Of a stretch of DNA of 31,642 nucleotides, positions 12,827-31,642 are shown in pieces. The notes under the pieces were generated by a model. It was given only the letters and a program-made list of their open reading frames with translations. It searched no databases and was not told the origin of the DNA. Origin of the DNA: a virus; the IMG/VR virus record IMGVR_UViG_3300042293_000356, positions 1 to 31,642 of that record; one strand, written 5' to 3'. A program made the position numbers and the translations under genes. Positions within the stretch are counted from its first letter, which is position 1, and each line of letters opens with the position of its first letter.

Positions 12827-12946
12827 CTAAATATTGTTATAGATAAATGGGTCTCTCTTTCTTAGCTCTTTTATTTTCTTTTTAAACTCTCTCTTTAATT
12901 TCCAAGTTTTGTATAAACTTTTCAATTTTTTAAATAATGTTATCAT
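12827..12946 (-). CDS. Small basic 39-residue protein
   Basis: A 39-codon gene on the minus strand, ATG at 12944-12946 and TAG at 12827-12829. It encodes MITLFKKLKSLYKTWKLKRE, then a Lys/Arg-rich helix ending in LRKRDPFIYNNI. It is one amphipathic, very basic helix with about 17 Lys/Arg, and the ending RDPFIY resembles small proteins I have seen in other T4-like phages. It fills the only gap of more than 100 bases in the window. It overlaps the stop of the upstream glycosyltransferase-like gene by 17 bases and ends 16 bases before the giant gene. Dense packing, fitting start and stop, and protein-like composition support it. Function unknown; DNA or membrane binding is conceivable from charge. 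Confidence 0.65.
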   Translation of the reverse strand: MITLFKKLKSLYKTWKLKREFKKKIKELRKRDPFIYNNI

Positions 12947-14261
12947 TTTTATGTATTTTTAATTCTTTAAATATATCCGAGTACCTATAATTATTGTGTT
13001 TTATTTTTTCAATTAAGTATTTTTCAACTTGGTTGTTCTTACCAATATCAATCATTAGTTGATGATTATGTTTTAAAATATGAAAATTATCTTTTATTAT
13101 ATCATCTATTTCATATATGCTTAATTTGTTTAATCTATCTATTTCATTTATAATTACATCCATTCTAATATCATTGTCTTCAATTGTGTCGTATGTTTCA
13201 TCTATTAAAAAATCAAATGTTTTAAACCCAATTTCTTTTAAATATTTTAACATATGTGGTCTACCAATAACAATAAATGGATGGTATTGAAATATTGGTT
13301 TCCATATTTTTTCTGATATAAAATCATTATCAATATAAAATGAAGTTTCCGTTACCAAACTAATATAACTTTCTAAAAATAAATTTTCATTTTCATGATA
13401 ATATCCATTTGTATTTGCAATATCCTCTCTATCTGCAATTGATTTAGCCGGCAGTGCTTCAAATTTTTCTTTTAAATCCGAATGTTTTTTATAGAAATTA
13501 GATAATTCATTTGTTACTAATGTTTTATCAAATGATATAATAGAATCGTATTGTATTTTATTAAAAATTTCAGATAATAGTTTTACTCTATGTAAATCTA
13601 ATCGCCTATTTAAACATAAAAACTTAAATGGTTTTTGTAATTTATAATGTGTATTATATAAATCTTTATTAATATGTTTATTGAAAAAATGTTTTGAAGA
13701 TGCGGTTAAATAAAATGAATAGTTAATTACCGATGGATATTCTGTTATATTAAATCTTTCTTTAAACGAAAGTAATTTTTGTTCTAAGTTATAATCATTT
13801 AAAATTAAAATTACATTTTCAAATTTAATCCCCGCGTTTTTAATGCCTAAATACATTCCTTTTAATAACCAATCACCTACCCATCCTTCATGTGAATAAT
13901 TTATAACAATTTTACCTTTGTTCTGATTTACTTTTTTTATTATATTAGATGGTATTAAATCAAAGAAATTACAAAAGTCATCCGTTGCTTCTATGTTTAA
14001 AGAATACATCAAATGCCCCCATGGTTCTATCGGATATACCCAATTTTCAGATTCAATATTATCAGTAATTTCTAATTTAATATCTTTTATACCAAGATTA
14101 CTAATCCAACTACTATGTTGATTTCCAAATTTATTTTCTAATTCGAATGAATCAATTAGTCTATCTGTAACAAATATATGACTTAATATTTCTGGTTTTA
14201 TACAATTTGGAATTGGTTTATTAAATTTCCACTTATCGTATAATAAAACAATATTATCCAT
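12930..14261 (-). CDS. GT10-like glycosyltransferase paralogue C
   Basis: A 443-residue soluble protein, third member of a family of three in this window. Shared blocks: INYSHEGWVGDW (120-131), FKFLCLNRRLDLHR (212-225), and a C-terminal block SLVTETSFYIDNDFISEKIW (301-320) followed by HPFIVIGRP (327-335) and LKEIGFKTF (341-349). The last block resembles the nucleotide-sugar-binding part of alpha-1,3-fucosyltransferases (GT10) and exostosin-like enzymes, where a conserved E...SEK precedes the P-x-x-x-G turn. A transfer of an activated sugar to a glycan or protein is the likely role; donor and acceptor are unknown. The start lies 8 bases inside the upstream SGNH gene. It is the last gene of the sugar block before the 39-codon gene. 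Confidence 0.7.
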   Translation of the reverse strand: MDNIVLLYDKWKFNKPIPNCIKPEILSHIFVTDRLIDSFELENKFGNQHSSWISNLGIKDIKLEITDNIESENWVYPIEPWGHLMYSLNIEATDDFCNFFDLIPSNIIKKVNQNKGKIVINYSHEGWVGDWLLKGMYLGIKNAGIKFENVILILNDYNLEQKLLSFKERFNITEYPSVINYSFYLTASSKHFFNKHINKDLYNTHYKLQKPFKFLCLNRRLDLHRVKLLSEIFNKIQYDSIISFDKTLVTNELSNFYKKHSDLKEKFEALPAKSIADREDIANTNGYYHENENLFLESYISLVTETSFYIDNDFISEKIWKPIFQYHPFIVIGRPHMLKYLKEIGFKTFDFLIDETYDTIEDNDIRMDVIINEIDRLNKLSIYEIDDIIKDNFHILKHNHQLMIDIGKNNQVEKYLIEKIKHNNYRYSDIFKELKIHKNDNII

Positions 14262-15156
14262 TAATTTCTTTTAAAATATAATCACTAATACTATTTGCAA
14301 TTATTTTATGACACTCTAATGAAGCGTGGTCATCAGGTACTTTATTACCATTTATTCTTAAATCAGATGTACTAATCATCATTTGTGGGTCTGATTTCAT
14401 TAAATCTGCTAATGAATTATATTCTATTGCATTATTATACATTTTAATATAAATCTTATTAAAAAATTCATCTTCAATTAAAAATGGTACATATTCATTT
14501 TGCCAAGTTAAAATTCTACATTTTATACCTGCTGCTTCGTATTTTATAAATAATTCTTTAATTAGATTTAAATTTTGTTGTATAAAAAACTTTTCCATAT
14601 CTTCCCAACTTGTAAAATTATCAGAATAGAATTTAAATAATTTTTCATATGTGTCAGATTGTATTTTTCCATCAAACATATTAATATTATTTTGATGTAA
14701 ATTATGTCTATCTCTAACACCCGCTACATTTAATTCCATTTGCTCATCATTTATATAAACTTGATAGTTCCTAAATGGGTCAGTAAGTTGCAGTATTACA
14801 TAACCAATTTCATCTGCGGAATAATGTTGGTCTGCGAATTTTTTATAATGTTTTTTAGATAATGCGTTTGTATCTGTTTCATTTTCTAAATCTATTATAT
14901 ATTCTAACCATGTAATAGAACCATCATCCGAACCACCATTATCTATTTTATTAACTTCCCATGTTCCTAATTTATCTGCAACCAATCTACTAAAACGATT
15001 TGCACTCATAAATTTATACATAGCTTGTGTAATTTTATGTGAATCCGTTGTATTATTTGCTACCGCATTTTTAATATCAATAAATGGTGTATAAAAATAT
15101 AAACCACTTCCCCAAGTATGAGAACATCCAGTAAATGCAATTCCTTTATTAAGCAT
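14254..15156 (-). CDS. SGNH/GDSL-like hydrolase paralogue B
   Basis: A 300-residue protein starting MLNKGIAFTGCSHTWGSGL: the block I motif GDS is changed to GCS, with the nucleophile Ser12 kept. Further SGNH-type landmarks: an NGGSDDGS segment (about 77-84), YVILQLTDPFR (118-128), LTWQNEYVPF (about 219-228) and a C-terminal VPDDHASLECHK with an Asp/His pair for the catalytic triad. The SGNH family removes acyl groups from sugars or lipids, or sometimes adds them. The paralogue at 15655-16548 shares all these blocks. The two are separated only by the E1-beta-like gene, and all three overlap by short stretches. Likely acts on the glycan made by this locus; substrate unknown. Confidence 0.7.
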   Translation of the reverse strand: MLNKGIAFTGCSHTWGSGLYFYTPFIDIKNAVANNTTDSHKITQAMYKFMSANRFSRLVADKLGTWEVNKIDNGGSDDGSITWLEYIIDLENETDTNALSKKHYKKFADQHYSADEIGYVILQLTDPFRNYQVYINDEQMELNVAGVRDRHNLHQNNINMFDGKIQSDTYEKLFKFYSDNFTSWEDMEKFFIQQNLNLIKELFIKYEAAGIKCRILTWQNEYVPFLIEDEFFNKIYIKMYNNAIEYNSLADLMKSDPQMMISTSDLRINGNKVPDDHASLECHKIIANSISDYILKEING

Positions 15157-15694
15157 AATATAACTCCGGATATTCTACTAATATATGAATACCACCTTCA
15201 TTTGTTGCATATTTGTAAGCTAATTCAATATCTTCCGGTGATTTTAAATCGTGAAATTCTATATTTTTACATAAAGATTTAAATTCCTCAAAATAATTTC
15301 CTCTATGTTGGTGACCTGGATCAATTGGTTTATCACTCCCTTTACCTAATCTAATAATTAAGTTCGGTTTCCACTTTTCTTGACTCATTATTCCAATTTT
15401 ATCAACGTGATTTATTAATTGGTTTGCTGCACAAATAATAAAATCCCAACGAGGATAGAATGTAATAACTCTTTTACCTGCCATTGCCAACCCTAAACTC
15501 ATTCCCATTTGTGATTCTTCCATTACAGGAACTTCAATCATTTTTTCTTTTGGAACAAATCCTAAAGTTGTACTCATAGGATTACCTTGATAAACTATTT
15601 GTTGACCAATAAAAACAGAATCTTCTAATTCTGCTAAATTTTTCATTGCTTCCGTTAGAGCATCTTTGTACGGGGTGTATTCTGGGTTTGCCAT
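15149..15694 (-). CDS. E1-beta-like thiamine-diphosphate enzyme subunit, pyrimidine-binding domain only
   Basis: A 181-residue protein matching the transketolase pyrimidine-binding domain of 2-oxoacid dehydrogenase E1-beta subunits: TPYKDALTEAMKNL (7-20), PVMEESQMGMSLGLAMAGKR (56-75) with the likely cofactor-activating Glu59, an aromatic WDFIICAANQLINHVDKI (83-100), NLIIRLGKGS (111-120) and HQHRGNYFEEF (128-138). Normal E1-beta has about 320-340 residues; here the C-terminal transketolase_C domain is missing. Its partner would be the E1-alpha-like gene at 23673-24308, about 8 kb away. Together they could transfer a two-carbon unit in synthesis of an unusual sugar; no E2 or E3 gene is present, so a full oxoacid dehydrogenase is unlikely. 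The start overlaps the upstream SGNH gene by 40 bases but matches the family N-terminus. Confidence 0.82.
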   Translation of the reverse strand: MANPEYTPYKDALTEAMKNLAELEDSVFIGQQIVYQGNPMSTTLGFVPKEKMIEVPVMEESQMGMSLGLAMAGKRVITFYPRWDFIICAANQLINHVDKIGIMSQEKWKPNLIIRLGKGSDKPIDPGHQHRGNYFEEFKSLCKNIEFHDLKSPEDIELAYKYATNEGGIHILVEYPELYYA

Positions 15695-16548
15695 ATAACT
15701 TGTTTTTCTATTTCTTCTATTTTATTAATAATTGCTTCTGCCTGTATTTTATGTGCCTTCAATGATGTATGACCATTTATTACTTTTTTTCCAATAGTTG
15801 TAAAATACGGGTCATCTGAAATACTCATACCTATCGGTCTATCTTTTCTACTTTGTAAATCCCATATTGAACTAAATATATTTCCATTCACATTGTATTC
15901 TATAAATCTATCTTCTAAAAATGAATTATTCTTAATGTATGGTATTAATTCGTTTTGCCAAGTGTGTATTAAACATTTTTTTACACCCATAGATTCATAT
16001 TTTCTAAACTTTTCCTCTACCATTTTTGCAAATTCATCTAAAAAAACGTGTGTATATTTTTTTATATCACCATCATATATTTCTTCTAAATATTTATCAA
16101 ATTCACTATTTTTTATAGATTGTACCGAATTAATATTACATTTTCTTACTACACCGTTATAAGTAAATTCAGTTTCTGCTCTAAACATATCAGTAAGTTG
16201 AACTACTACATAATCAAAATCTTCTAATTCCATTCTAAACATTCTATGTGCTACCGGACTTGAATTTGCTGGCACATAATTAAGTTGCCATTGTGTATTT
16301 AATGTATCTAAGAAAATAAAAATTTGATTGTTATCACCACCATTACTATCTCTACAATATTCAAATGTTTCAAAATGTGTAGCAACTTGTCTTGCAAATC
16401 TTTTTGATTTAATAAATTCTACATGAGCAGGCGTATAATCTTCTCTGTAATGCTGAGTTGCATTCCATTTAATATTAGGGAGGTGAGAGTAATATTGTAA
16501 TCCCTCACCCCATGTAAAACTATCACCTGCAAATAGAATTCCTTTCAT
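15655..16548 (-). CDS. SGNH/GDSL-like hydrolase paralogue A
   Basis: A 297-residue protein starting MKGILFAGDSFTWGEGL, with an intact GDS block (Ser10). Other SGNH-type blocks: DSNGGDNNQIFIFLDTL (about 62-78), YVVVQLTDMFRAE (113-125), LIHTWQNELIPYI (about 193-205) and VINGHTSLKAHK near the C-terminus, where Asn stands in place of the usual Asp two residues before His. Expected role: esterase or acyltransferase on a sugar or lipid. Its start overlaps the stop of the epimerase gene at 16548 (TAATG). It is paralogous to 14254-15156 over the full length. Whether the missing Asp reduces activity cannot be said. Confidence 0.72.
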   Translation of the reverse strand: MKGILFAGDSFTWGEGLQYYSHLPNIKWNATQHYREDYTPAHVEFIKSKRFARQVATHFETFEYCRDSNGGDNNQIFIFLDTLNTQWQLNYVPANSSPVAHRMFRMELEDFDYVVVQLTDMFRAETEFTYNGVVRKCNINSVQSIKNSEFDKYLEEIYDGDIKKYTHVFLDEFAKMVEEKFRKYESMGVKKCLIHTWQNELIPYIKNNSFLEDRFIEYNVNGNIFSSIWDLQSRKDRPIGMSISDDPYFTTIGKKVINGHTSLKAHKIQAEAIINKIEEIEKQVIWQTQNTPRTKML

Positions 16549-17525
16549 TAGTTTTGAAATTCTGATTTATTTTCTAAATACCATTCATACGCATTAGCTA
16601 ATCCATCTTCTAACGATGTACTTGCTTGCCATCCTAAGTTATCAAAAATCTTAAATGAATCAATCTTACGAGTTGGAATCATTGATGGTTTACCTTTAAT
16701 AAATTCAGTTGGTGCATCAAAGTTTGCAATTCTTTTCATTATTTCTAATACTTCTAATACGGAATACACTCTATTAGAACCTACATTATAAACTTGATAA
16801 TCTTCTTTTTCTTTTTCCATTACTATTTGCAATGCTTCTACGAAATCTTCGATATATAATAAATCTCTCAATTCACTACCATCACCCCATACAGGAATTG
16901 GATTCATTTGGTCTGCTACTTTTCTAATTGTTGCCGGAGTAACATGACACTTATTGAAATCGTATTTATCATGTGGACCAAATAAATTAGCTGGTCTGAT
17001 AATTGTACATTTCATTTTAACCGGTAAATACTTTGCGTATAATTCACATTGAACTTCTGCATATCTTTTCATCCAACCCACAGGAAAGTAAACAGGATAT
17101 GGTTCATCAAATAGGAAATCAGTCTCTACTACGGGCTTATCTCCTTTTGGTGGATAAACTGTATTAGATGATAAGAAGATGTAATGTTGAACCTTATTTC
17201 TCCAACTGGCATCAATTAAGAAATTGTTCATTGCTACGTTTGGTGTAACATGTGCCAATGGGTCAACTACGGTGTCTACTGCGTTTGATGTACTTGCTGC
17301 TGCGTGATATACTACATCAATTCCTTTGGTTGCATCTAAACACCCTTCGTATGTTTTTAAATCAAAATGAACATACTCTACACCATCAATTGGTGTTCGT
17401 ACTCCTCTTTTGTGTAAATTAACTCTAATGTTTGTGTAACCTTCTTTGTGTAATCGGTTTGTTAAATTTTGACCTACTAAGCCAGAACCACCTGTTATCA
17501 GGATTTTTGAATCTTTGTTTATCAT
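16548..17525 (-). CDS. NAD-dependent epimerase/dehydratase 3 (GDP-fucose-synthase-like), catalytic Tyr position changed
   Basis: A 325-residue extended SDR enzyme. Rossmann motif GGSGLVG at 12-18; HAAAST at about 74-79; FLSSNTVYPP (117-126) with the catalytic Ser/Thr region; RPANLFGPHDKYDF, the substrate loop typical of GDP-L-fucose synthase and related 4-reductases/epimerases; RDLLYIEDFVEAL; and a C-terminal MIPTRKIDSFKIFDNLGWQA. The usual YxxxK motif reads VGWMK: Lys153 is kept but Val149 stands at the Tyr position. It probably acts on a nucleotide-bound deoxysugar, but the missing Tyr may weaken or change the chemistry. It is flanked by a 2OG oxygenase and an SGNH gene, and its stop overlaps the latter's start. 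Confidence 0.82.
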   Translation of the reverse strand: MINKDSKILITGGSGLVGQNLTNRLHKEGYTNIRVNLHKRGVRTPIDGVEYVHFDLKTYEGCLDATKGIDVVYHAAASTSNAVDTVVDPLAHVTPNVAMNNFLIDASWRNKVQHYIFLSSNTVYPPKGDKPVVETDFLFDEPYPVYFPVGWMKRYAEVQCELYAKYLPVKMKCTIIRPANLFGPHDKYDFNKCHVTPATIRKVADQMNPIPVWGDGSELRDLLYIEDFVEALQIVMEKEKEDYQVYNVGSNRVYSVLEVLEIMKRIANFDAPTEFIKGKPSMIPTRKIDSFKIFDNLGWQASTSLEDGLANAYEWYLENKSEFQN

Positions 17526-17526
17526 A

Positions 17527-18183
17527 TTATTTTTTTGAGTTCATTATAAAACTTATTAATGCTTTTCTTTCAAAATTTGGATTTGTTATTGGGTTTACCT
17601 CATGTTCTAAATTTGCATTGGTAAAATCTAATACAACAAAGTTACCAAATTCCGGTGTAATTTCCAATTTATTTCCATCAAAATCTGTAATTATTAGTTC
17701 TCCCCCATCTCCTTTTTTCCAATCTTTATTCAAATATAGTAATACTACACATATTCTAAATTTATCATCATCTTCACCATCTTTATGATTTTTAATAAAA
17801 CAATCTTTATTATATAAAGTTAAATTAAAAGATGGGTTTCCAAATACATAATGATTTCTAGGATATAATTCTTGTAATTTTGAATAACAATATTTAGAAA
17901 TTAATTCACAATCTGCATGTCCATTGTATAAATGTTCAAACCAAATTTGTGCTAAGTCATTGTGTTTTTCAATAACCGATTGTTTATATTTGTTTTGACT
18001 TTCAAAATCATTAGATGGAACGATTCTTACATTGTGTACTTCTTTTAACGAATATACAATTTGGTATTCAAATTCTTTATAATCTATAATTTTAGTTAAA
18101 TATTGATTAAGTAATAATTCGTATGATTTACCAAAAAATTCTAAACCTAAACCAGCATAATATCCTTTACCTGTATATAACAT
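17527..18183 (-). CDS. 2-oxoglutarate/Fe(II)-dependent oxygenase B (prolyl-4-hydroxylase-like)
   Basis: A 218-residue protein whose C-terminal half has the double-stranded beta-helix signature: iron ligands His133 and Asp135 (FIKNHKDGED), His194 (LEHEV), and the 2-oxoglutarate-binding Arg206 (NFERKALISFIM). Between them, VVLLYLNKDWKKGDGGELII (146-165) is the typical core strand with the GGEL turn seen in prolyl hydroxylase-like enzymes. The N-terminal 110 residues are helical. Such enzymes hydroxylate amino-acid side chains or small molecules using oxygen and 2-oxoglutarate. A paralogue lies directly upstream, ending at 18184, with no base between the two genes. Substrate unknown; a virion protein or sugar precursor is possible. 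Confidence 0.82.
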   Translation of the reverse strand: MLYTGKGYYAGLGLEFFGKSYELLLNQYLTKIIDYKEFEYQIVYSLKEVHNVRIVPSNDFESQNKYKQSVIEKHNDLAQIWFEHLYNGHADCELISKYCYSKLQELYPRNHYVFGNPSFNLTLYNKDCFIKNHKDGEDDDKFRICVVLLYLNKDWKKGDGGELIITDFDGNKLEITPEFGNFVVLDFTNANLEHEVNPITNPNFERKALISFIMNSKK

Positions 18184-18906
18184 TTATTTATTTTTTAGTA
18201 CAACGAAATTTAAATATGCAAACCTATTAAACTCATTCATTACTTTATGTACCGAATGTACTGGCATACTTTTTGTAAAATCTAATACACCATAGTTTCC
18301 TAATATTGGATATACAATATCAATATGTTCTTCTTTATTTTTTAATACCAATTCACCACCATCACCTACATTATATTCACTTAATGGAGTTAAATATATT
18401 AAACAGGCACATAGCCTATCATTTACATATCCATCATTATGCATTGTAATAAAATCACTATCAGTATACCAAGTTATTTGACCTACACTTTGTATATCGG
18501 TTGCAGTAATATTTAATTCATAATGTTTATTTATAATACCCGCACATACTTTGTCCATTATAGGATAAAATACTTTATTAAAATAATCGTTTCCCAATCC
18601 AATTCTTTCTGCTAATTCACCACACCTTTGATGCACCATTTTATTTTGTTGGTGAGCGTGGTATCGTATATCATTACTTCCATCAACAAACTCTTTTATT
18701 TCTTTAAAAGTTTCTTCATCATAATATCCACTATCGGTGTGCTTTGGATGCGGATTCATAGAAGAATACAAATAAGTAACTAAATCTTTATTATCTTTAT
18801 ATTGTATTAATATATTATAAAAAGATTTAATTGTTTCAATTTCACTTTCATTTAAAAAATCCCATATTGTTCCTATTGCGTATTCGGTATTCTGAATCTG
18901 TAACAT
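18184..18906 (-). CDS. 2-oxoglutarate/Fe(II)-dependent oxygenase A (prolyl-4-hydroxylase-like)
   Basis: A 240-residue oxygenase with iron ligands His156 and Asp158 (FITMHNDGYV), a third His at 217 in VHSVHKV (His220 less likely), and Arg228 (EFNRFAYLNFV) for 2-oxoglutarate. The core strand is CACLIYLTPLSEYNVGDGGE (166-185), with GGEL as in the neighbour. Residues 1-140 are helical, with a His-rich stretch RYHAHQQNKMVHQRCGELAE (81-100). The gene begins on the stop of the short coiled-coil gene (TAATG at 18906) and abuts the second oxygenase. The paralogues differ strongly outside the metal-binding core, so they probably have different targets. Confidence 0.82.
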   Translation of the reverse strand: MLQIQNTEYAIGTIWDFLNESEIETIKSFYNILIQYKDNKDLVTYLYSSMNPHPKHTDSGYYDEETFKEIKEFVDGSNDIRYHAHQQNKMVHQRCGELAERIGLGNDYFNKVFYPIMDKVCAGIINKHYELNITATDIQSVGQITWYTDSDFITMHNDGYVNDRLCACLIYLTPLSEYNVGDGGELVLKNKEEHIDIVYPILGNYGVLDFTKSMPVHSVHKVMNEFNRFAYLNFVVLKNK

Positions 18907-19304
18907 TATATTAGGTTTTTTGGTTTTTTATTTAATAAATTTGATTCCTCTATTGCCATTTCTTCTGCCAAATCAAATCTTATTTTATTTAATCTTGTTC
19001 TATCAATATCTAATTGTTTTTCAATTGAAATAAATTCGTTTTTTAATCTTTCAATTTCTAAATTTTTAGCATCTTTTATTTCTTTATTTAATTTTGCTAA
19101 TTCCTTTCCCACATTTGCTCTTGCTTCATTTATCCTATTTCTTTCTATTGCTATATTTTCTTTTTCATGTTCAATATCTTTCCATTCATAGTATATTTTA
19201 CTACGCTCCAACATAATCTTTTCTCTTTCATCTGCGATTATTTGCTTTTGCTTTTCTAAATATTCCATTTCTTTATTTATTTCTTTTTCAGATATCACTC
19301 GCAT
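18906..19304 (-). CDS. Coiled-coil protein B (short paralogue)
   Basis: A 132-residue, almost fully helical, highly charged protein. Its first 46 residues (MRVISEKEINKEMEYLEKQK onward) are close to those of the longer neighbour at 19320-20003, including the block YYEWKDI. A repeat unit at about 93-116 (IEKQLDIDRTRLNKIRFDLA, Asp101) occurs once here and three times in the longer protein. No membrane segment, no enzyme motif. It could be a rod, a scaffold, or a fibre-associated spacer. It lies between the longer copy and the oxygenase pair, with 15 bases before it and a TAATG overlap after it. Confidence 0.7.
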   Translation of the reverse strand: MRVISEKEINKEMEYLEKQKQIIADEREKIMLERSKIYYEWKDIEHEKENIAIERNRINEARANVGKELAKLNKEIKDAKNLEIERLKNEFISIEKQLDIDRTRLNKIRFDLAEEMAIEESNLLNKKPKNLI

Positions 19305-19319
19305 ACTATAATTATTAAC

Positions 19320-20003
19320 TTATATAATTTGTTTTGATTTTTTATAAATATTTAATTTAGCAGTTCCTATTGCAATCTCCTCAGCTATTTCGGCTCTAAT
19401 TTTATCTAATCGATTTCTATCCTCAGTTAGTTGTGATTCCAATTCATTTTCCTTTTGTTTTCTAATAAAAATTATATGATTTTCTAATTCCAGTTCCAAT
19501 TCTGTTTTTATTATAGAATGTGCAGTATTAATATCATTGTATATTTCATTTCGAATTGTATCTAATCGTTTTCTATCTTTTACTAATTGTTTTTCTAATT
19601 CTGATTCTTGTTCTTTTATAATTTTTTTATGTTTATCTGTAATTTCTTTTTCTAATTTTTTTGTTATCGTTTCAAATCGTTTCCTGTCATTTGCTAATTG
19701 TATGTCAAATTCTTTTTCTTGTTTTTTTCTTTGTTCACCAATTTCATTTGCCCAAAAATCTTCTTTTGCTTTTTTATTTAATTCATGTCTTTTATTCATT
19801 TCATCAATTAAAATAACATTAGATTCATTTAGATTTTCTCTTATTTTTTTATATTCTTCATCCAATTCCTGCAAATCTCGCCATTCATAGTATAACCTAC
19901 TACGTTCAATCATTAATCTCTCACGTTCTTCTGAAATTATTTGCTTTTGTTTTTCTAAATATAATTGTTCTTTATCTAGTTCTGTTTGAGATATAACTTT
20001 CAT
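19320..20003 (-). CDS. Coiled-coil protein A with three repeat units
   Basis: A 227-residue coiled-coil protein, start MKVISQTELDKEQLYLEKQK. The 32-base overlap with the upstream epimerase would make the start doubtful, but the same N-terminus in the shorter paralogue supports it. Three imperfect repeats are seen: around Asp106 (QLANDRKRFETITKKLEKEI), Asp143 (QLVKDRKRLDTIRNEIYNDI) and Asp195 (QLTEDRNRLDKIRAEIAEEI). The rest is Lys/Glu-rich helix, except for the stretch EDFWANEIGE (81-90). No homologue recognised. The difference from the short form is best explained by gain or loss of repeat units within a duplicated gene. Confidence 0.72.
   Translation of the reverse strand: MKVISQTELDKEQLYLEKQKQIISEERERLMIERSRLYYEWRDLQELDEEYKKIRENLNESNVILIDEMNKRHELNKKAKEDFWANEIGEQRKKQEKEFDIQLANDRKRFETITKKLEKEITDKHKKIIKEQESELEKQLVKDRKRLDTIRNEIYNDINTAHSIIKTELELELENHIIFIRKQKENELESQLTEDRNRLDKIRAEIAEEIAIGTAKLNIYKKSKQII
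19374..19715 (-). repeat. Three diverged coding repeats in coiled-coil protein A
   Basis: Units at about 19641-19715, 19530-19601 and 19374-19445, each encoding a QL..DR.R...I...I helix. Spacing between the Asp codons is 37 and then 52 residues, so the units are not in strict tandem. A fourth related unit lies in the short paralogue at about 18955-19030. Confidence 0.6.
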
Positions 20004-24308: not shown

Positions 24309-24841
24309 CTGTCTCTTTTTTGTAATATAGGGTTTGTTGTTGGCCATTCCATTTGATATTCCGGGTCATTCCATTTAACTACACCTTGCTCATCTGCATC
24401 CACATAACCATCTTTATAGAATAAGTTATAGTGAAACATACAATCAGTTAATGCATAGTGTCCGTTTGCAAAACCAGGTGGAACTAATACTTGATTTCTA
24501 TCTTTCTCAGTTATCATAAAAGATTCCCACTCTCCAAAGGTAGGACTATTTTTTCGCATATCCAAAACAATTAGATAAATATCTCCAACTGCTGCTTGTA
24601 CTAATTTCCAAGTTTTATTATCGTAATGTAATCCTCTTAATACACCTTTATATGATTTTGAGAATCTACCATGCACTTCGTTTCCTTCACCTATTTTTTG
24701 CATAACAGGATGTTGTCCAGAATGAAAGGTTGTAAATATTTCGCCTCTATATTCTCTATAAATTGATGGAGTATAGGTCGGTACTTCATAACCAAATTTT
24801 TTTGATGGAGTTATTTTAAAATCATCCCACTTATTACTCAT
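24305..24841 (-). CDS. RmlC-like dTDP-4-keto-6-deoxysugar 3,5-epimerase
   Basis: A 178-residue cupin of the usual RmlC length. Family motifs: HGRFSKSYKGVLRGLHYDN (57-75) with the likely catalytic His72; VGDIYLIVLDMRKNSPTFGE (85-104); QVLVPPGFANGHYAL (117-131), where the common AHGF is ANGH; FHYNLFYKDGYVDADEQG (136-153) with Tyr138; and WNDPEYQMEWPTTNP (157-171) with Asp159. Members epimerise C3, C5 or both in dTDP- or CDP-linked 4-keto-6-deoxysugars. No nucleotidyltransferase or 4,6-dehydratase pair (RmlA/RmlB) is seen in the window, so the substrate may come from the host. It stands between a radical SAM gene (6-base gap) and the E1-alpha-like gene. Confidence 0.9.
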   Translation of the reverse strand: MSNKWDDFKITPSKKFGYEVPTYTPSIYREYRGEIFTTFHSGQHPVMQKIGEGNEVHGRFSKSYKGVLRGLHYDNKTWKLVQAAVGDIYLIVLDMRKNSPTFGEWESFMITEKDRNQVLVPPGFANGHYALTDCMFHYNLFYKDGYVDADEQGVVKWNDPEYQMEWPTTNPILQKRDR

Positions 24842-24847: not shown

Positions 24848-26398
24848 TTATTTTTCTACATTTAAATATTGAATAATTTCATTTTCCAATTCATCGGTAA
24901 CAACTCCTTCTTCTAACGCTCTTTTTTCATAATCTTTTTTATATAAATTATTTTCATCACCCCTTACTTTTTTGATTTCAATTTCATAATCCATTTTGGT
25001 TGCTCTAACTCTTTCAAACCAATCTTCTAATTCAGGAAAAGTTTCTACAAAGTTTTTATTACGTCTAACATCATATTGTTGATAGAACGATTTGAAATCT
25101 CTTTGTCTACTTCTTAAATCTGATGCAAATCTATGTCCTTGTGATACTTCTCTTAAATATTCACATAGTCTATATATTTGATTTGCTAACCCCCATAGGT
25201 CAGTGTCATTGTAATATGAAGGTTTACTCTTAATAAAGTTTTCAACCCAATATTGGATATGTTCTGCTCTTTCTAAACGTATTTCTTCGGGTAATGTACT
25301 AACTGATTGAAATGATGGGAAACGTAAAATATTAAGAGTCATTAATACTGATGTTTTATCAATATATTTTTCTCTTAACTTATTCATTTCATCTAAGAAA
25401 TCTGTTATACTAAAAATACATAATGCATTAATTGTCATCATTACATTAAATGTTCTTAAATTACCATCTCTAATCATTCTCTCTGCATTTTCTCGCCATA
25501 CTTCCCACTTCAAACCATCTCTAATATATTCAGCATGCTTACCAACACTTTCGTTTGATGTATAAATGTCAATTGATTTAAAGTTATGAGTTGCTTTAAT
25601 TAATTTATCTACCAACTCTTTCTTTTGACCTAAGTTTGAGTTAACTGCGAAGTGAACATCACAATTAGGATTGTTTTCCCACCAATCCATTAACTTCCAA
25701 AAATCTTTACTCATTGTAGGTTCACCACCGGTCACTCTTAATTCTCTTAATGAATGTTGTAACTCACCTTCCCACCATTTCCAAAATGCTTCAACGTATG
25801 GATTATCTTTATTATCTTTACCATATATCATTGCATCATCTCCAGCGTGGTGAAATGCACCTGCACCATCGGTATTAAGATTTTGATAAGCACCATTTGT
25901 TTTAATATCCATTTGCCAAGTTGTACTAAACGATGCATTACAATATGAACAAGCAAAGTTACAATTAGCATCAAAACTAATTTCTAATGTTTTTAAATCA
26001 ACATCTTTGGTATATCCTAATTCATTTTTTGCTTCTATTAATTCTTCATCCGTATAGATTACTGATTTGTAAACTCTATCACTTACTTTATCCGGTCCTA
26101 AATCTTCAATCTTCCAACAATACTCACATTCATTCGGTCTAATACCTTCCATCATTTCTTTACGAACTAATTTCTTATAATGTGTATTATGTAATGCTTT
26201 ATATGATTTAGATAATTCTTCTAATGGTATTTTATGTGCCGGTGGATGGTGACATGATGTGGTTTGTCCCATATTTAACCATATAGTAGCATTGTACCAC
26301 TTTGCTCCACAAAAAGAATTAGAGAGTGAGTTTATTGCCCTATCTCTATATTCTTGAAATGTTTCATCACCTTTTTTTGCATATACAAATTCTGCCAT
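24848..26398 (-). CDS. Radical SAM protein B (twitch-type)
   Basis: A 516-residue radical SAM enzyme. The cluster motif is CNFACSYC (Cys146, Cys150, Cys153), followed by RVTGGEPTMSKDFWKLMDWW containing the GGEP SAM-binding motif. Before the core is a distinct region with TTSCHHPPAHKIP (Cys49, His50, His51) and a CEYCWKIED motif (Cys91, Cys94), which may bind a second metal site or recognise a substrate. Radical SAM enzymes make a 5'-deoxyadenosyl radical and modify peptides, sugars or nucleic acids. Its paralogue is at 28078-29469. The neighbours are an epimerase and an RmlC-like gene, one base and six bases away. Target unknown. Confidence 0.88.
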   Translation of the reverse strand: MAEFVYAKKGDETFQEYRDRAINSLSNSFCGAKWYNATIWLNMGQTTSCHHPPAHKIPLEELSKSYKALHNTHYKKLVRKEMMEGIRPNECEYCWKIEDLGPDKVSDRVYKSVIYTDEELIEAKNELGYTKDVDLKTLEISFDANCNFACSYCNASFSTTWQMDIKTNGAYQNLNTDGAGAFHHAGDDAMIYGKDNKDNPYVEAFWKWWEGELQHSLRELRVTGGEPTMSKDFWKLMDWWENNPNCDVHFAVNSNLGQKKELVDKLIKATHNFKSIDIYTSNESVGKHAEYIRDGLKWEVWRENAERMIRDGNLRTFNVMMTINALCIFSITDFLDEMNKLREKYIDKTSVLMTLNILRFPSFQSVSTLPEEIRLERAEHIQYWVENFIKSKPSYYNDTDLWGLANQIYRLCEYLREVSQGHRFASDLRSRQRDFKSFYQQYDVRRNKNFVETFPELEDWFERVRATKMDYEIEIKKVRGDENNLYKKDYEKRALEEGVVTDELENEIIQYLNVEK

Positions 26399-26399
26399 A

Positions 26400-27368
26400 T
26401 TAAAATGTTTGTGCGTATCCTAACGGAAATCCATTTCTAAATTCAGATGCCATTCTAGGAATCAATACCTGATAGGTTTTCATTAATTCTATAATACCAT
26501 CATCTAATGTGTATTTTGGTTTCCAACCGGTTGCTTCTATTTTTGCATTAGATACAATATAATCTCTTTTATCCGGGTCTTCGTAGTAATCATTATATGA
26601 TATTGCAAAGTCTGGAATATATTTTTGAATAGTTTCTAATAATTCTTGTTTAGTTAAATTTGCGTTACTTAATCCAACATTATAAACATTATGTCTCATT
26701 TTATCATAATTATTTAATGCCCATAAGAATACATTTGCCACATCTTGAATATGAATAAAGTTTCTCTTAAAATGTTTTTCAAATACGGTTATGTATTTAT
26801 CTGTCATTGCTTTGTATACAAATTCATTAACTAATAAATCAGTTCTCATTCTTGGTGATGTACCAAACACAGTTGCTAATCTAAAAATTATTGCTGAACT
26901 ACATTCTAATAGTAATTTTTCTGCTGCACATTTACTTTCACCATAAACTGAAATAGGATTTAAAGGTGATTCTTCGGTACATTCTGTTTGTCCTTCACCG
27001 ATACCATATCCACTATTTGTATTTGGATATAATATAATTTGTTCATCAGTAATTGTATCTAATATAGTTTCTATTTGAGTAAAGTTTACTTCCCATGCTA
27101 ACTTAGGGTCTTTAGCACAAGCAGGAAAACCTACAATTGCGGCTAATGGAATAATAACATCATGTATTCCTACTTCATGTCTTAATAATCTTTCATTACG
27201 AACATCACCATATATAAAATTATATTTTTTATTTGTTGTAAATTGTAATGGAGAAATTTGATTGAATGATAAGTTATCTATGACAGTAACACTATGTCCT
27301 GCGTTTAACATCTTTTCGGTAATTACTGAACCTAAATAACCTGCACCACCTGTAATTAATATTTTCAT
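26400..27368 (-). CDS. NAD-dependent epimerase/dehydratase 1 with intact YxxxK
   Basis: A 322-residue extended SDR enzyme: Rossmann motif GGAGYLG (7-13), IYGDVRN (52-58), IIPLAAIVGFPACAKDP (72-88), the catalytic block SVYGESKCAAEKLL with Tyr142 and Lys146, RLATVFGTSPRMR, FIHIQDVANVFLWAL and VYNVGLSNANLTK. It belongs to the UDP-glucose/GalNAc 4-epimerase-like and reductase-like group; the exact reaction cannot be read from the sequence. Unlike the two other epimerase-like proteins in this locus it keeps the full catalytic motif. It starts on the stop of the LamG gene (TAATG at 27368) and ends one base before the radical SAM gene B. Confidence 0.87.
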   Translation of the reverse strand: MKILITGGAGYLGSVITEKMLNAGHSVTVIDNLSFNQISPLQFTTNKKYNFIYGDVRNERLLRHEVGIHDVIIPLAAIVGFPACAKDPKLAWEVNFTQIETILDTITDEQIILYPNTNSGYGIGEGQTECTEESPLNPISVYGESKCAAEKLLLECSSAIIFRLATVFGTSPRMRTDLLVNEFVYKAMTDKYITVFEKHFKRNFIHIQDVANVFLWALNNYDKMRHNVYNVGLSNANLTKQELLETIQKYIPDFAISYNDYYEDPDKRDYIVSNAKIEATGWKPKYTLDDGIIELMKTYQVLIPRMASEFRNGFPLGYAQTF

Positions 27369-28078
27369 TATATTAGAGTTTGTTTTATATTTGTAATATC
27401 TGCCGTTTCTAATGAGTTTCCTGCTAATAATTTATTTAATTTAATTTGAATTGTTTTATTCATAAATTCTTCAATATATGCAAAATTACCATTACCACTT
27501 TTATCCCACACTTTAAATCTATTTACTTTTGTAAAATCTAAATTAGTAACTATACCTTCATTGTTTGAAACTATAAATTCAGATATTATACCATTAAAAT
27601 AATATCTTTCATTAGTATCTTTTAAAAATGGATTCATTACACCAATCCATAGTGGTACATGTGCATAATCGCAAGTTTTATATTTACATTTAACCATTCG
27701 TTTTTCACCATTTACTGAAACCAAAAACATACTGATTCCTTCTACATTTTGAATTTGATAAATAACTTTATATTCTTTATCATATTCAAAATCAAATTCT
27801 TCAATATGCATATCATCCGAAAAATTACCACTTTCAGGATTTGCAGTAAATAATACACATTTTAATTTATTATTATCAATATAAACCCCACTATTTACTA
27901 TTCCAGGTTTTGCAAAAATATATTGTTTTTTTCCATTATTTTGTGCAATAAATGTACAATTTATAATTACAGAATCGTTAAACACCGTTCCCAATAAATT
28001 AGGTCGTTTGGATGTATTGTGTTTAGATTCGTTCCATACACTGCAACAAAAAGTATCTTTAAATTCAAATAGTTCCAT
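27368..28078 (-). CDS. LamG-like (concanavalin A-type) protein
   Basis: A 236-residue protein, mostly beta-strand, with a LamG-like pattern: a central KVIYQIQNVEGISMFLVSVN (about 103-122), LWIGVMNPFLKDTNERYYFN (143-162), GIISEFIVSN, and then NLDFTKVNRFKVWDKSGNGN (about 179-198), which resembles the YDF...DLS.NGNHG tail in the LamG proteins upstream. No signal peptide. In phages such lectin-like domains occur in fibre, decoration or receptor-binding proteins. It lies between radical SAM A and epimerase 1 with TAATG overlaps at both ends, which links it tightly to the modifying enzymes and makes it a candidate substrate or carrier. Confidence 0.65.
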   Translation of the reverse strand: MELFEFKDTFCCSVWNESKHNTSKRPNLLGTVFNDSVIINCTFIAQNNGKKQYIFAKPGIVNSGVYIDNNKLKCVLFTANPESGNFSDDMHIEEFDFEYDKEYKVIYQIQNVEGISMFLVSVNGEKRMVKCKYKTCDYAHVPLWIGVMNPFLKDTNERYYFNGIISEFIVSNNEGIVTNLDFTKVNRFKVWDKSGNGNFAYIEEFMNKTIQIKLNKLLAGNSLETADITNIKQTLI

Positions 28079-29469
28079 TATTTCATTTCTTTACATTTGT
28101 TATAAAAATCAGCCAATTCAGGGAATGTTTTTTCAAAATTAGTTCCCCTTCTTTTATCATGCTCACTAAAAAATTTATAAAAATCTTTTCTATGTGCCAT
28201 TCTATCTTCATCATCGATTGATATAAAATAATCATAAATTCGTCTAATCTTAACGATTTCAACATCACTAAACCCATAACAATTTACATCATCCCTTAAT
28301 AATTCATAAAATTCAACTAATTGTGCTTGTTTAAATATTTCGTCCGACCATTCTTTATCTAATATTCTAATAGATTGATGGTTTGGATATCTTAAATATG
28401 AACTATCTAATAATAATGGTTGTTTATAATATCTTAATGCGTTTGTGTGTTTTGCTTTTAGTGAATATACATCATCAATTAATTTACGATACGATGGTAC
28501 TGATAATGCGTTGTATGTACTCATTATATCTACTGTCAGTCTTGGGATATACTGGCATAAATCATCTATTCTATCCATCAATTGATTATATACTAAACCA
28601 TTTCTAACGTACTCAGCCTGTGTACCATATCCATCACAACTTGTGTAAATAATTAATTCTTTAACTAATCCTCGATCGGATATAATTTTAAATTTTTCTC
28701 TGAATTTTTTATATAACGAATCGGGTACACCTAAATTTGAATTGATACTTAAACATAAATTCTTATTTGGATTTGGAGAATCAATGATATAATCTAATAC
28801 TTTCATAGTATCTTTATGCATCATAGGTTCACCACCTGTGATTCTAAATGTATATAAATCTTGATACAACTCCGGCCACCATTTCCAAAATGCTTCTACA
28901 TATGGATTAAATTCACTTTGTGGGATTGGTATTCTACCACTACTTACAAAATGTTCTAATCCATTAAAATTATCAGATGTTGGGTATCCACCATGTTGTT
29001 CAATTTCTTCCATCCATTTTGTTGAGAATGGTGGTGCACAATATGAACATTTAAAATTACAAGCATTACTGAATGAAACTTCTACATACGAAGGATTTAT
29101 ATTATCTCTCCAATTACTTTGTTTAATCTTTTCTAAATGTGGAAATGCCCATGGTTCAGACGATTTAAATGTTCTATCACTAAATTGATTTGAACTATCC
29201 TCTACACCCCAACAATAATCACATTCTGCCGGCTTCCCACCTTCTAACATTTCTCTTCTTTTTTGTTTTTTGAAGCGTGTATTATGAAGTGCGGAAGGGT
29301 CTCTATTTAATTCAGTTGTTGATACCTGATGTGTCATCGGATGGTGACAACTATGATTATGTCCAATATGTAAATGCATTGTTACTTGCATCCATTTTGC
29401 TAAACAGAATCCTACTCCTACCGCATTTAATTGTTCTCTTACACTTTCAAATTTTTCGTAACTAGCCAT
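28078..29469 (-). CDS. Radical SAM protein A (twitch-type)
   Basis: A 463-residue radical SAM enzyme with the cluster motif CNFKCSYC (Cys137, Cys141, Cys144) and FRITGGEPMMHKDTMKVLDY. As in protein B, there is an upstream NHSCHHPMTHQV motif (Cys41, His42, His43) and a CDYCWGVED motif (Cys83, Cys86). Shared stretches such as ALHNTRFKKQKRREMLEGG and NPYVEAFWKWWPEL show that A and B are paralogues. It sits between the GT7-LamG fusion gene and the LamG gene, with TAATG overlaps on both sides. A role in modifying a lectin-bearing phage protein or a sugar is plausible from context; no precursor peptide gene is visible. Confidence 0.88.
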   Translation of the reverse strand: MASYEKFESVREQLNAVGVGFCLAKWMQVTMHLHIGHNHSCHHPMTHQVSTTELNRDPSALHNTRFKKQKRREMLEGGKPAECDYCWGVEDSSNQFSDRTFKSSEPWAFPHLEKIKQSNWRDNINPSYVEVSFSNACNFKCSYCAPPFSTKWMEEIEQHGGYPTSDNFNGLEHFVSSGRIPIPQSEFNPYVEAFWKWWPELYQDLYTFRITGGEPMMHKDTMKVLDYIIDSPNPNKNLCLSINSNLGVPDSLYKKFREKFKIISDRGLVKELIIYTSCDGYGTQAEYVRNGLVYNQLMDRIDDLCQYIPRLTVDIMSTYNALSVPSYRKLIDDVYSLKAKHTNALRYYKQPLLLDSSYLRYPNHQSIRILDKEWSDEIFKQAQLVEFYELLRDDVNCYGFSDVEIVKIRRIYDYFISIDDEDRMAHRKDFYKFFSEHDKRRGTNFEKTFPELADFYNKCKEMK

Positions 29470-30911
29470 TATGCTTTACAATTTATTATTACAGAATTAT
29501 TACCTATTTCATCTACTGATATGAGTTCGTATTCTAAACTATTCATACCATCGTTTTTCCAATTATACTTACCTTGTTGCATTTCTAATATATATCTTCT
29601 TTCATTTCTTGCAGTTGTTTCACCCTTTGCCCATTTATCTACACCACCAACTGTTATTAGACCTTCGGTTTGGTGTGGTAAACATTCAAACTTACCATCT
29701 CTACGGAAAGGTAAGATAGTATTATTAACTTTCAAAGTATTTTCTTCTTTTATTTCAACATCATTTATTTCGCCATGATTTCCGTTATCACTTAAATCGT
29801 TTAATACATTTCCATTTATTGAATTAAAATCATAATGTGCCACCATATCATTCGGAAATTCCATTATTTCATTTTCTGATAAACATCTATCCCACATCAT
29901 AACTTTTGCAATATCACCTTTAAACCATCTATTAACCTCATCTACTCCTACCGATGGTGTTGTTCCAATATAGTATGGTTCTGTTCCATATCTTTTTAAA
30001 TACCCACTATATTCTAATGGTGATGTTGCACCTGTTCCAAATCTTGCATCACTTTTTTTACCATTGATGTGAAGTGAAATTAATTTATTATCATCATCAA
30101 CTGTCAATGTTACCCAACTCCATTGTTGTTCGTATCTCTTTGCCCATAGGTATAAAAATTCTCTTTCATTATTCCATAACATAGAAGTAAATGCTCTACT
30201 ATTATTATACGATATACCCCAATCATGTCCCGGTCTGCGAAGGATTGGATATTCACAAAATCTTCTATCTGCATCTCCAATTAAATAAATAGGAACTTTC
30301 TCCTCTTGTTGATGTGCTCTTACTAATATTGAAACCGTATGTGAACGTGAGCATAAATTTCTAATTGAACGAGATGGTTCTATTTTAACATATGATTTTA
30401 ATCCATCAAAATATCCATACTTTTGGTTGGTTATATCCGGTAAATAATGTTGTTCTGCATTACCGGTCAATACACATCTCCAAAAAAGGTCATCATCTTC
30501 CATACCCCAATCCCAATAATCGTTTGAGTAACCATTTGTTGCTCCAACTTGTTCTTTTGTAAACAATACTGCACCACCAAAATACTCCTCATATTTAAGG
30601 TTATAATCTGTTTGAGATATTCTTACTGCTAAATGCTTAGGGTTCTCAGGATTGAACGTATAATCACAAGAACTATCCTCTGGTACCATATCTATATCAT
30701 GCCATACAATATAATCACATCCATCATCAAATGCGTGTTTCGCTGCAATGTTTTTCATCTTACCTCTATTGAATAACTTATCATCACATTGATGCGCAAA
30801 ATATATTTTATGTTCAATACCTTGTTCTTCTAAGAATTTATGAACTCTAGGTGAAAACTCTTTTAAATGAGCTTCTCTATTTCTATATGGTACACATACT
30901 CCTAACTTCAT
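29469..30911 (-). CDS. GT7 beta-1,4-galactosyltransferase-like domain fused to LamG lectin domain
   Basis: A 480-residue fusion. Residues 1-185 match the GT7 family of animal beta-1,4-galactosyltransferases: VPYRNREAHL (7-16), FNRGKMKN (47-54), the metal-binding DID (72-74) in WHDIDMVPED, and FGGAVLFTKEQVGATNGYSN (111-130) followed by WDWGMEDDDLFWR (133-145). Residues about 190-350 are LamG-like: SWVTLTVDDDNKLISLHING, then YYIGTTPSVGVDEVNRWFKG and IAKVMMWDRCLSENEI. Residues 355-480 hold HYDFNSINGNVLNDLSDNGN and a C-terminal module with PFRRDGKF (401-408) that is also present in the neighbouring partial gene. Likely role: transfer of a hexose, with the lectin part binding the glycan or anchoring the enzyme on the particle. 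The start forms an ATGA overlap with the upstream gene. Confidence 0.88.
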   Translation of the reverse strand: MKLGVCVPYRNREAHLKEFSPRVHKFLEEQGIEHKIYFAHQCDDKLFNRGKMKNIAAKHAFDDGCDYIVWHDIDMVPEDSSCDYTFNPENPKHLAVRISQTDYNLKYEEYFGGAVLFTKEQVGATNGYSNDYWDWGMEDDDLFWRCVLTGNAEQHYLPDITNQKYGYFDGLKSYVKIEPSRSIRNLCSRSHTVSILVRAHQQEEKVPIYLIGDADRRFCEYPILRRPGHDWGISYNNSRAFTSMLWNNEREFLYLWAKRYEQQWSWVTLTVDDDNKLISLHINGKKSDARFGTGATSPLEYSGYLKRYGTEPYYIGTTPSVGVDEVNRWFKGDIAKVMMWDRCLSENEIMEFPNDMVAHYDFNSINGNVLNDLSDNGNHGEINDVEIKEENTLKVNNTILPFRRDGKFECLPHQTEGLITVGGVDKWAKGETTARNERRYILEMQQGKYNWKNDGMNSLEYELISVDEIGNNSVIINCKA

Positions 30912-31642
30912 AGTTTAACTGAAATTTTTATTGCTTTTTCTGAAAGTTTGTTACTTTCTATTTCTTTATATATGCAGGTGTTTAATCCATCTATTGATAA
31001 ATCTACTATATTACCTTTCATTTCGTTGTAAAATCTTTCTTGATTTTTTCTTGTTTCTGAATGTACCCAATTATTCCCAATTGTTGAATTTGAACTATGT
31101 TTTAATGTTTTAAATTTTCCTTCTCGTCTAATTGGAACTATAATTTCTGTTTCAAATTTATCTACCAATATGTTATCTTCACAATTGTAAATAAATCCAT
31201 TATTTTTATTGCCACTTAAATCTTGTATAATATCACCTTTAAAATTTTTAAAATCATAATAACATTTTAAGTATTTTGATTTATCATATTTTCTATAATC
31301 ATTAATTATAGATTTGTATAATGAATTTTCATATACTTCTTTTATGTTATCTAATTCTAATACAATATTCCAAATAGCAAACTCAGCAATTAATCCTTTA
31401 AAATAAAATTGTTTAGCATCTAATGTTGGATTACCTACCCCAATATAAAAATAATCATTATCATATTCATATATTTGTTCTTTTAATTCTTTGGTATCGA
31501 TTAGTTCACCATTCATATAAAAAGAAAATATATCATCTTCTTTTGTAATTACTAAGTGTGACCATACTTCACCAATGATATCACTTTGAATAGATGTTGA
31601 AATATCATCTTTAGTCCAAATCTCACCTTTGTATCGTTTGAA
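30908..31642 (-). CDS. LamG-domain protein (partial, N-terminus outside window)
   Basis: The frame is open to the window edge, so the first 244 codons seen are the C-terminal part of a longer protein; the ATG at 31516 is internal to the LamG fold and is not the true start. The edge sequence reads FKRYKGEIWTKDD, followed by EVWSHLVITKEDDIFSFYMN, YFYIGVGNPTLDAKQFYFKG and LIAEFAIWNIVLELDNIKEV, a clear LamG pattern. Then YYDFKNFKGDIIQDLSGNKN and a C-terminal module (VPIRREGKF, ENNWVHSE-like, ERFYNEM, DGLN) matching the end of the GT7-LamG fusion. It may also carry a glycosyltransferase domain further upstream, but this cannot be seen. The stop overlaps the next start by ATGA. Confidence 0.75.
   Translation of the reverse strand, partial: FKRYKGEIWTKDDISTSIQSDIIGEVWSHLVITKEDDIFSFYMNGELIDTKELKEQIYEYDNDYFYIGVGNPTLDAKQFYFKGLIAEFAIWNIVLELDNIKEVYENSLYKSIINDYRKYDKSKYLKCYYDFKNFKGDIIQDLSGNKNNGFIYNCEDNILVDKFETEIIVPIRREGKFKTLKHSSNSTIGNNWVHSETRKNQERFYNEMKGNIVDLSIDGLNTCIYKEIESNKLSEKAIKISVKL

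Follow-up and report, generated by a model that had tools for sequence, protein, structure and literature searches.

The IMG/VR virus record IMGVR_UViG_3300042293_000356 (positions 1 to 31,642, a 31,642-base stretch called the window here) contains an island of sugar genes that we predict to be a phage-owned glycan locus. The core of the island would make a C2-branched sugar derived from GDP-heptose or GDP-mannose, which would be placed on a soluble phage protein; we put the probability of this reading at roughly 0.4. All 31 main open reading frames (ORFs) of the window are on the minus strand, and ORFs cover 99% of it. The island (o1-o20) comprises 20 ORFs on one strand from 31642 to 12930; most overlap or abut, and judged solely by this same-strand packing they form an apparent single transcript. 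An initial annotation had listed three epimerase/dehydratases, an RmlC-like epimerase, a split thiamine diphosphate (ThDP) enzyme, GT10-like glycosyltransferases (GTs), a GT7-LamG fusion, radical S-adenosylmethionine (SAM) proteins, 2-oxoglutarate (2OG) oxygenases, SGNH hydrolases, and LamG proteins, and all of these are present on the minus strand at 12930-31642 based on Pfam, NCBIfam, and PHROG profile matches. It had also proposed that the phage makes a modified sugar by C2-unit addition and epimerisation. Our analysis supports a modified nucleotide-sugar pathway in which both are probable, and the substrate can be sharpened to a probable GDP-4-keto heptose or mannose. Large uncultivated aquatic phages look able to build a rare carbon-branched sugar with conserved enzymes and to attach and decorate it with fast-changing ones.

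The core includes Epi1 (26400..27368), a sugar-nucleotide C4-dehydrogenase-like protein of the short-chain dehydrogenase/reductase (SDR) type (PF01370). Among solved proteins it has a single strong match, PDB 6vo6 (E=3.9e-115, residues 2-303), with all others far weaker; we take 6vo6 to be Cj1427, a GDP-D-glycero-D-manno-heptose C4-dehydrogenase of Campylobacter jejuni. Passages of PMC10680097 and PMC7949155 describe this role for Cj1427. The RmlC-like 3/5-epimerase (24305..24841; PF00908, 5e-33) appears to be of the heptose-epimerase type, as its best solved relatives are 7ang, 7an4, and 7ani, along with entries named GDP-4-keto-heptose epimerases, ahead of other RmlC entries. These three structures are MlghB/DdahB, according to the part of PMC7949155 that deals with them. 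Five of the six MlghB/DdahB active-site residues (His67, Lys74, Asn121, Tyr132, Tyr134, Asp173) are matched, by His72, Lys79, Asn126, Tyr138, and Asp177. Also present, and invariant across 35 aligned rows, is His128, the equivalent of DdahB His123, which the same part of PMC7949155 places in position to contact the heptose C7 hydroxyl and which is Phe in RmlC.

The ThDP enzyme is indeed split into two halves. E1alpha (23673..24347, 224 aa; PF00676, 5.3e-20) is the ThDP-binding half of a short enzyme resembling pyruvate dehydrogenase (PDH) E1, and E1beta (15149..15694, 181 aa; PF02779, 1.7e-6; PDB 1ik6, 3.2e-14) is a Pyr domain only, without the transketolase C-domain. The two look like parts of one enzyme, though 8 kb apart, because PHROG_34187 spans both (profile positions 5-198 and 237-401). 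Alignment with human PDH E1alpha matches His55, Arg82, His84, Asp151, and Asn180; E1beta aligns to the first half of PDH E1beta only, with Glu59 matched to Glu. Two further SDRs, Epi2 (19972..20910; PF01370; NF047922, 2.5e-39) and Epi3 (16548..17525; NF047922, 3.5e-43; PDB 1bsv, GDP-fucose synthetase, 1.3e-31), have GDP-fucose synthase as best model at scores under the cut-off and are predicted to be Fcl-like reductases. The best PDB match of Epi2 is 4zrm, named UDP-glucose 4-epimerase, with GDP-fucose synthetases next. PF01370 E-values of the three epimerase/dehydratases are 9.8e-36, 3.9e-41, and 1.6e-43.

On the best reading of these homologies, the module product would be derived from GDP-heptose or GDP-mannose and probably be C2-branched. 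Epi1, or a GMD-like dehydratase in sister phages, would turn a GDP-linked sugar (most likely GDP-D-glycero-D-manno-heptose, otherwise GDP-mannose) into its 4-keto form, and the RmlC-like enzyme would epimerise the 4-keto sugar at C3, C5, or both. A two-carbon unit, probably acetyl from pyruvate, would then be added onto the keto carbon by the short E1alpha/E1beta enzyme, and Epi2 and Epi3, where present, may reduce either the C4 ketone or the one newly formed on the side chain.

The genes of this set occur together more often than chance predicts, and the set is conserved in related phages, a test named beforehand in the initial annotation. Scans were seeded with E1alpha (35 virus loci), Epi1, the GT7-LamG fusion and radical SAM protein 1 (rSAM1; best 80 of 227 and of 97 loci, respectively), and portal (best 80 of at least 596). 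Neighbour counts for the Epi1 and rSAM1 seeds use loci of at least 15 kb only (by seed, E1alpha 29/35, Epi1 27/32, rSAM1 59/80, GT7-LamG 69/80, portal 18/80), and one contig can supply loci to several seeds (e.g., L002 and L233). RmlC is near E1alpha in 35/35 loci and E1beta in 33/35; the two exceptions, L003 and L021, end short of its usual place. Epi1 is found in 27 of these loci and a GMD-like SDR in the remaining 8 (designated from locus maps and identity comparison, then counted), never both. The GMD-like SDR sits between E1alpha and E1beta in the maps read, has gmd as its best model, below the cut-off, and shares 61-63% identity with a gene that a SAR11 cell carries 4.5 kb away from its E1alpha. 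The strongest argument for a 4-keto nucleotide sugar as the substrate of E1 and RmlC is that two alternative candidate 4-keto makers accompany the same pair. In seven E1alpha loci there is little beyond Epi1-RmlC-E1alpha-E1beta.

Seeding with the GT7-LamG fusion gave 63 loci with 8 kb downstream, in which rSAM1 is always present (63/63) and all five genes occur in 44. The order GT7-LamG, radical SAM, Epi1, RmlC, E1alpha on one strand is conserved in 43/63 of these loci and in 39/56 clusters at 95% on the nucleotide level. From the Epi1 seed, RmlC was found in 25/27 loci and E1alpha in 22/27.

Cellular genomes contain relatives of the core. The scan yielded at least 52 loci: 31 closer (L039-L069) and 21 more distant (L070-L090), the latter with mostly full-length E1. 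Short E1 pairs are encoded in groups that include SAR11, Nanoarchaeota, Parcubacteria, and Omnitrophota; RmlC and Epi1 (at 48-53%) accompany some of these pairs, and in some of the SAR11, Parcubacteria, and Omnitrophota relatives the short E1 is near heptose-activation genes. Among the loci listed, the flanking sequence retrieved contains an HddA-like heptose kinase in 9/31 closer versus 0/21 more distant loci, GmhB-like genes number 4 versus 0, and HddC-like genes 4 versus 1; GMD-like SDRs are equally common (8 and 10). In the tested cellular examples, the HddA and HddC matches are below their cut-offs and GmhB is above. One locus, L039 (VHCC01000006.1, titled Candidatus Pelagibacterales), has the phage-type run from GT7-LamG to E1alpha and is not among the nine HddA loci; it is probably phage DNA binned with a bacterium.

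The heptose-activation neighbours, together with the transketolase-type domains, also suit an alternative in which the short E1 branches no sugar and instead supplies precursors in a transketolase-like reaction or an acyl donor for the SGNH enzymes. We know of no branching activity for any short E1, which counts in favour of this alternative. Its best families are nevertheless PDH E1alpha/beta rather than transketolase, it is accompanied by RmlC and a 4-keto maker in 35/35 loci, as would fit an acceptor ketone, and sedoheptulose 7-phosphate is already an ordinary host metabolite. We consider a non-branching role unlikely, though with an appreciable chance, and retain C2 branching as the predicted function.

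Divergence between related phages suggests that island genes differ in their rates of change. Compared with the L004 contig, whose portal and terminase are 99% identical to those of the window, Epi1, RmlC, Epi3, and E1beta have synonymous divergence (dS) of 0.33-0.37, similar to terminase and portal with 0.31 and 0.23 (nonsynonymous to synonymous ratio, dN/dS, 0.02 for both, lower than in the core). The core is under purifying selection, with dN/dS of 0.06-0.20 (0.06-0.13 for those four genes against L004). Fourteen other island genes (GTs, SGNH, 2OG, radical SAM, LamG, Epi2) have dS of 0.54-1.16 and protein identity of 29-90%; values near 1 approach saturation, and best matches among paralogous GTs may not be orthologues. 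The flanking genes cytT and u23 have dS of 0.17 and 0.51. E1alpha gave no row in the comparison with this first phage (phage A), and coiled-coil protein 2 and genes past contig ends had no match. In a second pair (phage B), dS is 0.52-1.12 overall without separation of core from periphery, and the contrast is in dN only. Two different histories thus seem to be interleaved in the island, a fixed core and swapped decoration, much as O-antigen loci show. In L018, L023, L024, L031, and L034 the ORF after E1alpha begins within the E1alpha end and may be GMD-like, GT10-like, or a longer fusion, as would be seen if genes were exchanged at this junction.

The module has a recurrent genomic place. Sixteen contigs have E1alpha and a terminase at least 60% identical to that of the window, and in 14 of them E1alpha precedes terminase by 11.9-19.5 kb, both genes sharing a strand; in G008, G010, and G012 (terminases 31-35%), the module is far from it. 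A tree of E1alpha, in which 79 rows remained of 167 hit loci after removal of sequences that contained stops or fell short of 150 aa and after thinning at 92% (L039 not included), places all 40 viral rows in one clade (100/96) beside four SAR11-type rows (99/79), and two cyanophage versions elsewhere. Such a topology fits one uptake by the phage lineage and separate cyanophage uptakes. A bolder version of our reading, of which we are decidedly doubtful, is that large T4-like phages, probably of Bacteroidota, inherit vertically a pathway to a nine-carbon sugar, C2-branched GDP-heptose, and have a constantly swapped set of GT, SGNH, 2OG, and radical SAM enzymes that yields a strain-specific glycan on tail fibres or other virion proteins.

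A reading of the island as host-derived cargo or stuffer DNA, useless to the phage, is favoured by its patchiness in relatives, with E1alpha in 1/7 portal-seeded contigs. The low dN/dS of the core, the order kept in 39/56 clusters, the single viral clade, and the similar position in 14/16 contigs disfavour this explanation, which we judge very improbable.

Attachment would be carried out by cytosolic GT-B and GT7-LamG transferases. A GT7-LamG fusion of 480 aa is encoded at 29469..30911 (PF13733, PF02709, PF13385), and this protein has no match at E 1e-5 among 50,697 phage records. Of the LamG proteins first listed, the one at 30908..31642 (PF13385, 1.4e-13) belongs to a second GT7-LamG fusion, of which the contig end leaves only the 3' part. 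Its full-length form (470 aa, Glyco_transf_7N/7C and LamG) is at L233:8592-10004, and a third GT7-LamG lies further upstream. L002 and L233 represent the same phage on a longer contig, with proteins 100% identical; besides these two complete GT7-LamG proteins they encode, in the upstream continuation of the island, a methyltransferase-domain protein and a weakly GT2-like protein, and the locus ends in a large protein of at least 856 residues without a Pfam match. The LamG-like protein at 27368..28078 has no GT domain and is unseen by Pfam; one profile comparison (hhalign, 97%) links it to the LamG domain that the GT7 fusions carry.

Three GT-B proteins (a, 22183..23688; b, 20915..22186; c, 12930..14261) had been called GT10-like. 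The GT-B fold holds for c (model pLDDT 78.9), with which a (also by sequence alignment) and b cluster, while the GT10 assignment has fold support only, and no sequence match of these proteins to solved GT10 enzymes was found. The sole Foldseek match of the c model under E 0.001 is BshA; on re-alignment, FutA (2nzx, GT10) ranks first with Z 12.1, tied with TarM (11.7) and T4 beta-glucosyltransferase (11.5). FutA and the T4 enzyme rank alike, so neither a GT10 nor a DNA transferase label is concluded.

The near-equal fit to the T4 enzyme, in a T4-like phage, is what favours transfer of the sugar to phage DNA bases, a hypermodification for which the 2OG and radical SAM proteins would prepare the base. 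The 2OG domains are PF13640 and PF13661 and not TET/JBP, and three GT-B proteins, several GT7-LamG proteins, SGNH enzymes, and swapped decorations exceed any DNA glycosylation set known to us. Transfer to DNA is improbable, although no search for base-modifying enzymes elsewhere in the genomes was made.

The glycan may be decorated by SGNH, 2OG, and perhaps radical SAM enzymes. Two SGNH-type hydrolases/acyltransferases had been proposed; the fold is supported for SGNH2 (14254..15156; model pLDDT 78.5, CE2/TesA Z 13-13.7), and SGNH1 (15655..16548, GDSFTWG motif at its start) is assigned by 27% identity to SGNH2. In an alignment of 11 rows Ser12, Asn73, Gly75, and His277 are invariant, and no conserved Asp stands three positions ahead of His277. 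The 2OG-Fe(II) oxygenases are encoded at 18184..18906 (PF13661, 8.4e-8) and 17527..18183 (PF13640, 2.7e-13). The twitch-domain radical SAM proteins, rSAM1 (28078..29469; NF033640, 4.1e-97) and rSAM2 (24848..26398; 2.5e-92), exceed the curated NF033640 cut-off of 170 with 325.8 and 310 bits. The initial gene list had missed two coiled-coil ORFs, at 19320..20003 (by sequence; present in 3/35 E1alpha loci) and 18906..19304 (a paralogue of the first by sequence and clustering). A carbamoyltransferase cluster (tested representative PF02543; L024:1-1210) is near the module in 16/35 E1alpha loci and may provide further decoration.

As acceptor we consider a soluble protein of the phage most likely, for example a tail fibre, which would give the virion a variable glycan coat. 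No ORF with at least five predicted transmembrane (TM) segments was found among 2101 phage ORFs (115 loci, representing fewer contigs) versus 23 among 433 cellular ORFs (in 14/30 loci), by a simple hydropathy scan with a strict threshold and ORFs of at least 100 aa. In a hand-picked set of 23 loci, the GT7 cluster is preceded by a large ORF on its own strand in 20, and 2 of the 6 tested, also chosen by hand, have a tail-fibre PHROG match. The absence of multi-span ORFs and the tail-fibre-like upstream genes weakly favour a soluble phage-made acceptor over phage-built export. The LamG proteins had been suggested as acceptors; o1 and o2 are glycosyltransferases that carry a LamG domain, so they are more likely machinery.

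A serious rival, to which we give a sizeable minority chance, is that the same sugar is placed on the lipopolysaccharide (LPS) or capsule of the infected host, where it would block superinfection or alter a receptor. PMC3037559 applies the name LPS clusters to the cyanophage gene clusters in which a fused short E1 occurs, and leaves open a function or stuffer DNA. Core relatives occur in cellular loci rich in sugar-nucleotide genes, GTs can act in the cytosol on host lipid-linked glycans, and the module is opposite to the head-gene strand in several phages. Transfer to the host surface is made less probable by the lack of a visible flippase or polymerase in the 115 phage loci, by the module position upstream of terminase on its strand in most contigs, and by tail-fibre-like genes that precede it in at least two loci.

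Several observations weigh against our main reading. Four of the six large upstream ORFs tested have no tail PHROG match. E1alpha is on the other strand in G004 and G014, 7.8 and 8.7 kb from terminase, and the module is opposite to cytT in 7 of the 10 E1alpha loci where cytT is in view (L006, L018, L020, L021, L023, L025, L031), where it may be inverted or newly inserted; because of these cases the module is not always one late operon with head-side genes. At least one of the five genes is missing in 19/63 GT7-LamG loci, and E1alpha occurs anywhere in only one of the seven portal-seeded contigs. Epi2, Epi3, and GT10 are all missing from 7/35 E1alpha loci and so appear dispensable, and Epi2 is among the fast-diverging genes in one phage pair. 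The side-chain chemistry first suggested for the radical SAM and 2OG enzymes stays a conjecture. The radical SAM family is far wider than the module, with E1alpha near only 10/59 rSAM1 loci. The equation of 6vo6 with Cj1427 is presumptive, MlghB/DdahB Tyr132 is replaced by Phe136 in the RmlC-like protein, and the short E1 halves (224 and 181 aa versus 365 and 341 aa in 1ni4) are without the ends of full-length subunits. A GHMP kinase is found in only 4/23 phage records, always outside the module, so most of these phages would have to draw GDP-heptose from the host; three of these four kinases were tested and are HddA-like (NF049969, ~1e-100, below cut-off). GmhA (PF13580) was detected in 0/23 records, but S-SM2, whose annotation lists a phosphoheptose isomerase, gave no match either, so its absence is not concluded.

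The low end of the window encodes T4-like phage genes: prohead protease, endolysin, portal, and terminase. By PHROG matches, the minus-strand genes at 338..12811 include a nucleotidyltransferase fusion, the terminase large subunit, portal, and endolysin. Between terminase and island, 8654-12811 encodes a protein of 1385 aa in which a cytidyltransferase-like domain (PHROG_395) at the N-terminus is followed by a long further stretch. The terminase shares 54-55% identity with its counterparts in Flavobacterium phage immuto and Microcystis phage Mel-JY01, a resemblance that suggests a Bacteroidota host as likely. One module-bearing phage contig encodes a 1072-aa outer-membrane beta-barrel protein (L363:5786-9001, PF25183), which hints at a Bacteroidota host or a chimeric contig. 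Another, of 180 kb, has a 541-aa ORF that is GroEL chaperonin-like by eye (L364:969-2594), near an IscA-like ORF.

If our reading is true, these phages produce a rare branched sugar themselves and vary how it is decorated, as bacteria diversify O-antigens. The module would then provide tractable access to a short ThDP carboligase with GDP sugars as substrates, and variable glycans on large aquatic phages could be tested for directly.

Phage nucleotide-sugar clusters, PDH-like C2-branching enzymes, and GDP-heptose modification are each already known separately. In the open-licence papers searched we found no report of these three united in a phage with GT7-LamG and radical SAM genes, of a twitch-domain radical SAM protein in a phage, or of phage GDP-heptose auxiliary metabolic genes. 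Among the 50,697 phage records the best-ranked Epi1 match has 35.5% identity, and rSAM1 matched two records at 22.6%. Phage YerA41 was rejected as E1-bearing, as the E1 word belonged to a host gene. The capsular GDP-heptose pathways of Campylobacter jejuni (Cj1427, MlghB/DdahB, MlghC/DdahC) share the C4-dehydrogenase-like SDR, the RmlC-like C3/C5 epimerase, and the Fcl-like C4 reductase; the island differs in being phage-borne, in adding a ThDP E1-like enzyme ('thiamin' is absent from the main text of PMC10680097), and in having no membrane-export gene seen.

According to passages of PMC12247030 and PMC10338323, C2 branching of keto sugars is carried out, in some cases by proposal, by PDH-like enzymes of two subunits. 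The alphaKADH2 sugar-branching enzymes (aldgamycin, kibdelomycin KbDH-alpha/beta, and the proposed EvdU5/EvdS3) share PDH-E1-like alpha and beta ThDP subunits in keto-sugar pathways, and the phage halves have the expected ThDP site (Asp151, Asn180, and E1beta Glu59). They differ in being short and, in some cells, near heptose genes, and their branching activity is a prediction.

Like known phage LPS or nucleotide-sugar clusters, the window combines several genes for nucleotide sugars and GTs within a phage genome. Phage dTDP-rhamnose sets (phAPEC8-like, Justusliebigvirus muut) likewise encode a nucleotide-sugar pathway with RmlC, but theirs are annotated RmlA, B, C, and D, the RmlC is 34.5% identical, and no E1 is annotated in the stretch. 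Cyanophage LPS clusters (P-SSM2, S-SM2, S-SSM7) and P-TIM68 share the T4-like background and nucleotide-sugar genes, with a fused short E1 in S-SM2 and P-TIM68; their E1 is on a separate branch, Epi1 relatives are only distant, GT7-LamG and rSAM1 have no match, and the clusters lie near hli and tRNA genes. In S-SM2 and P-TIM68 (L037, L038) the single-chain fusion of short E1 halves is annotated transketolase, and a carbohydrate kinase and a phosphoheptose isomerase are nearby. The proposed outcome, glycans on virion proteins, is shared with mycobacteriophage virion glycosylation as cited in PMC12619734, which involves different genes; in the phages described here it is predicted from gene content.

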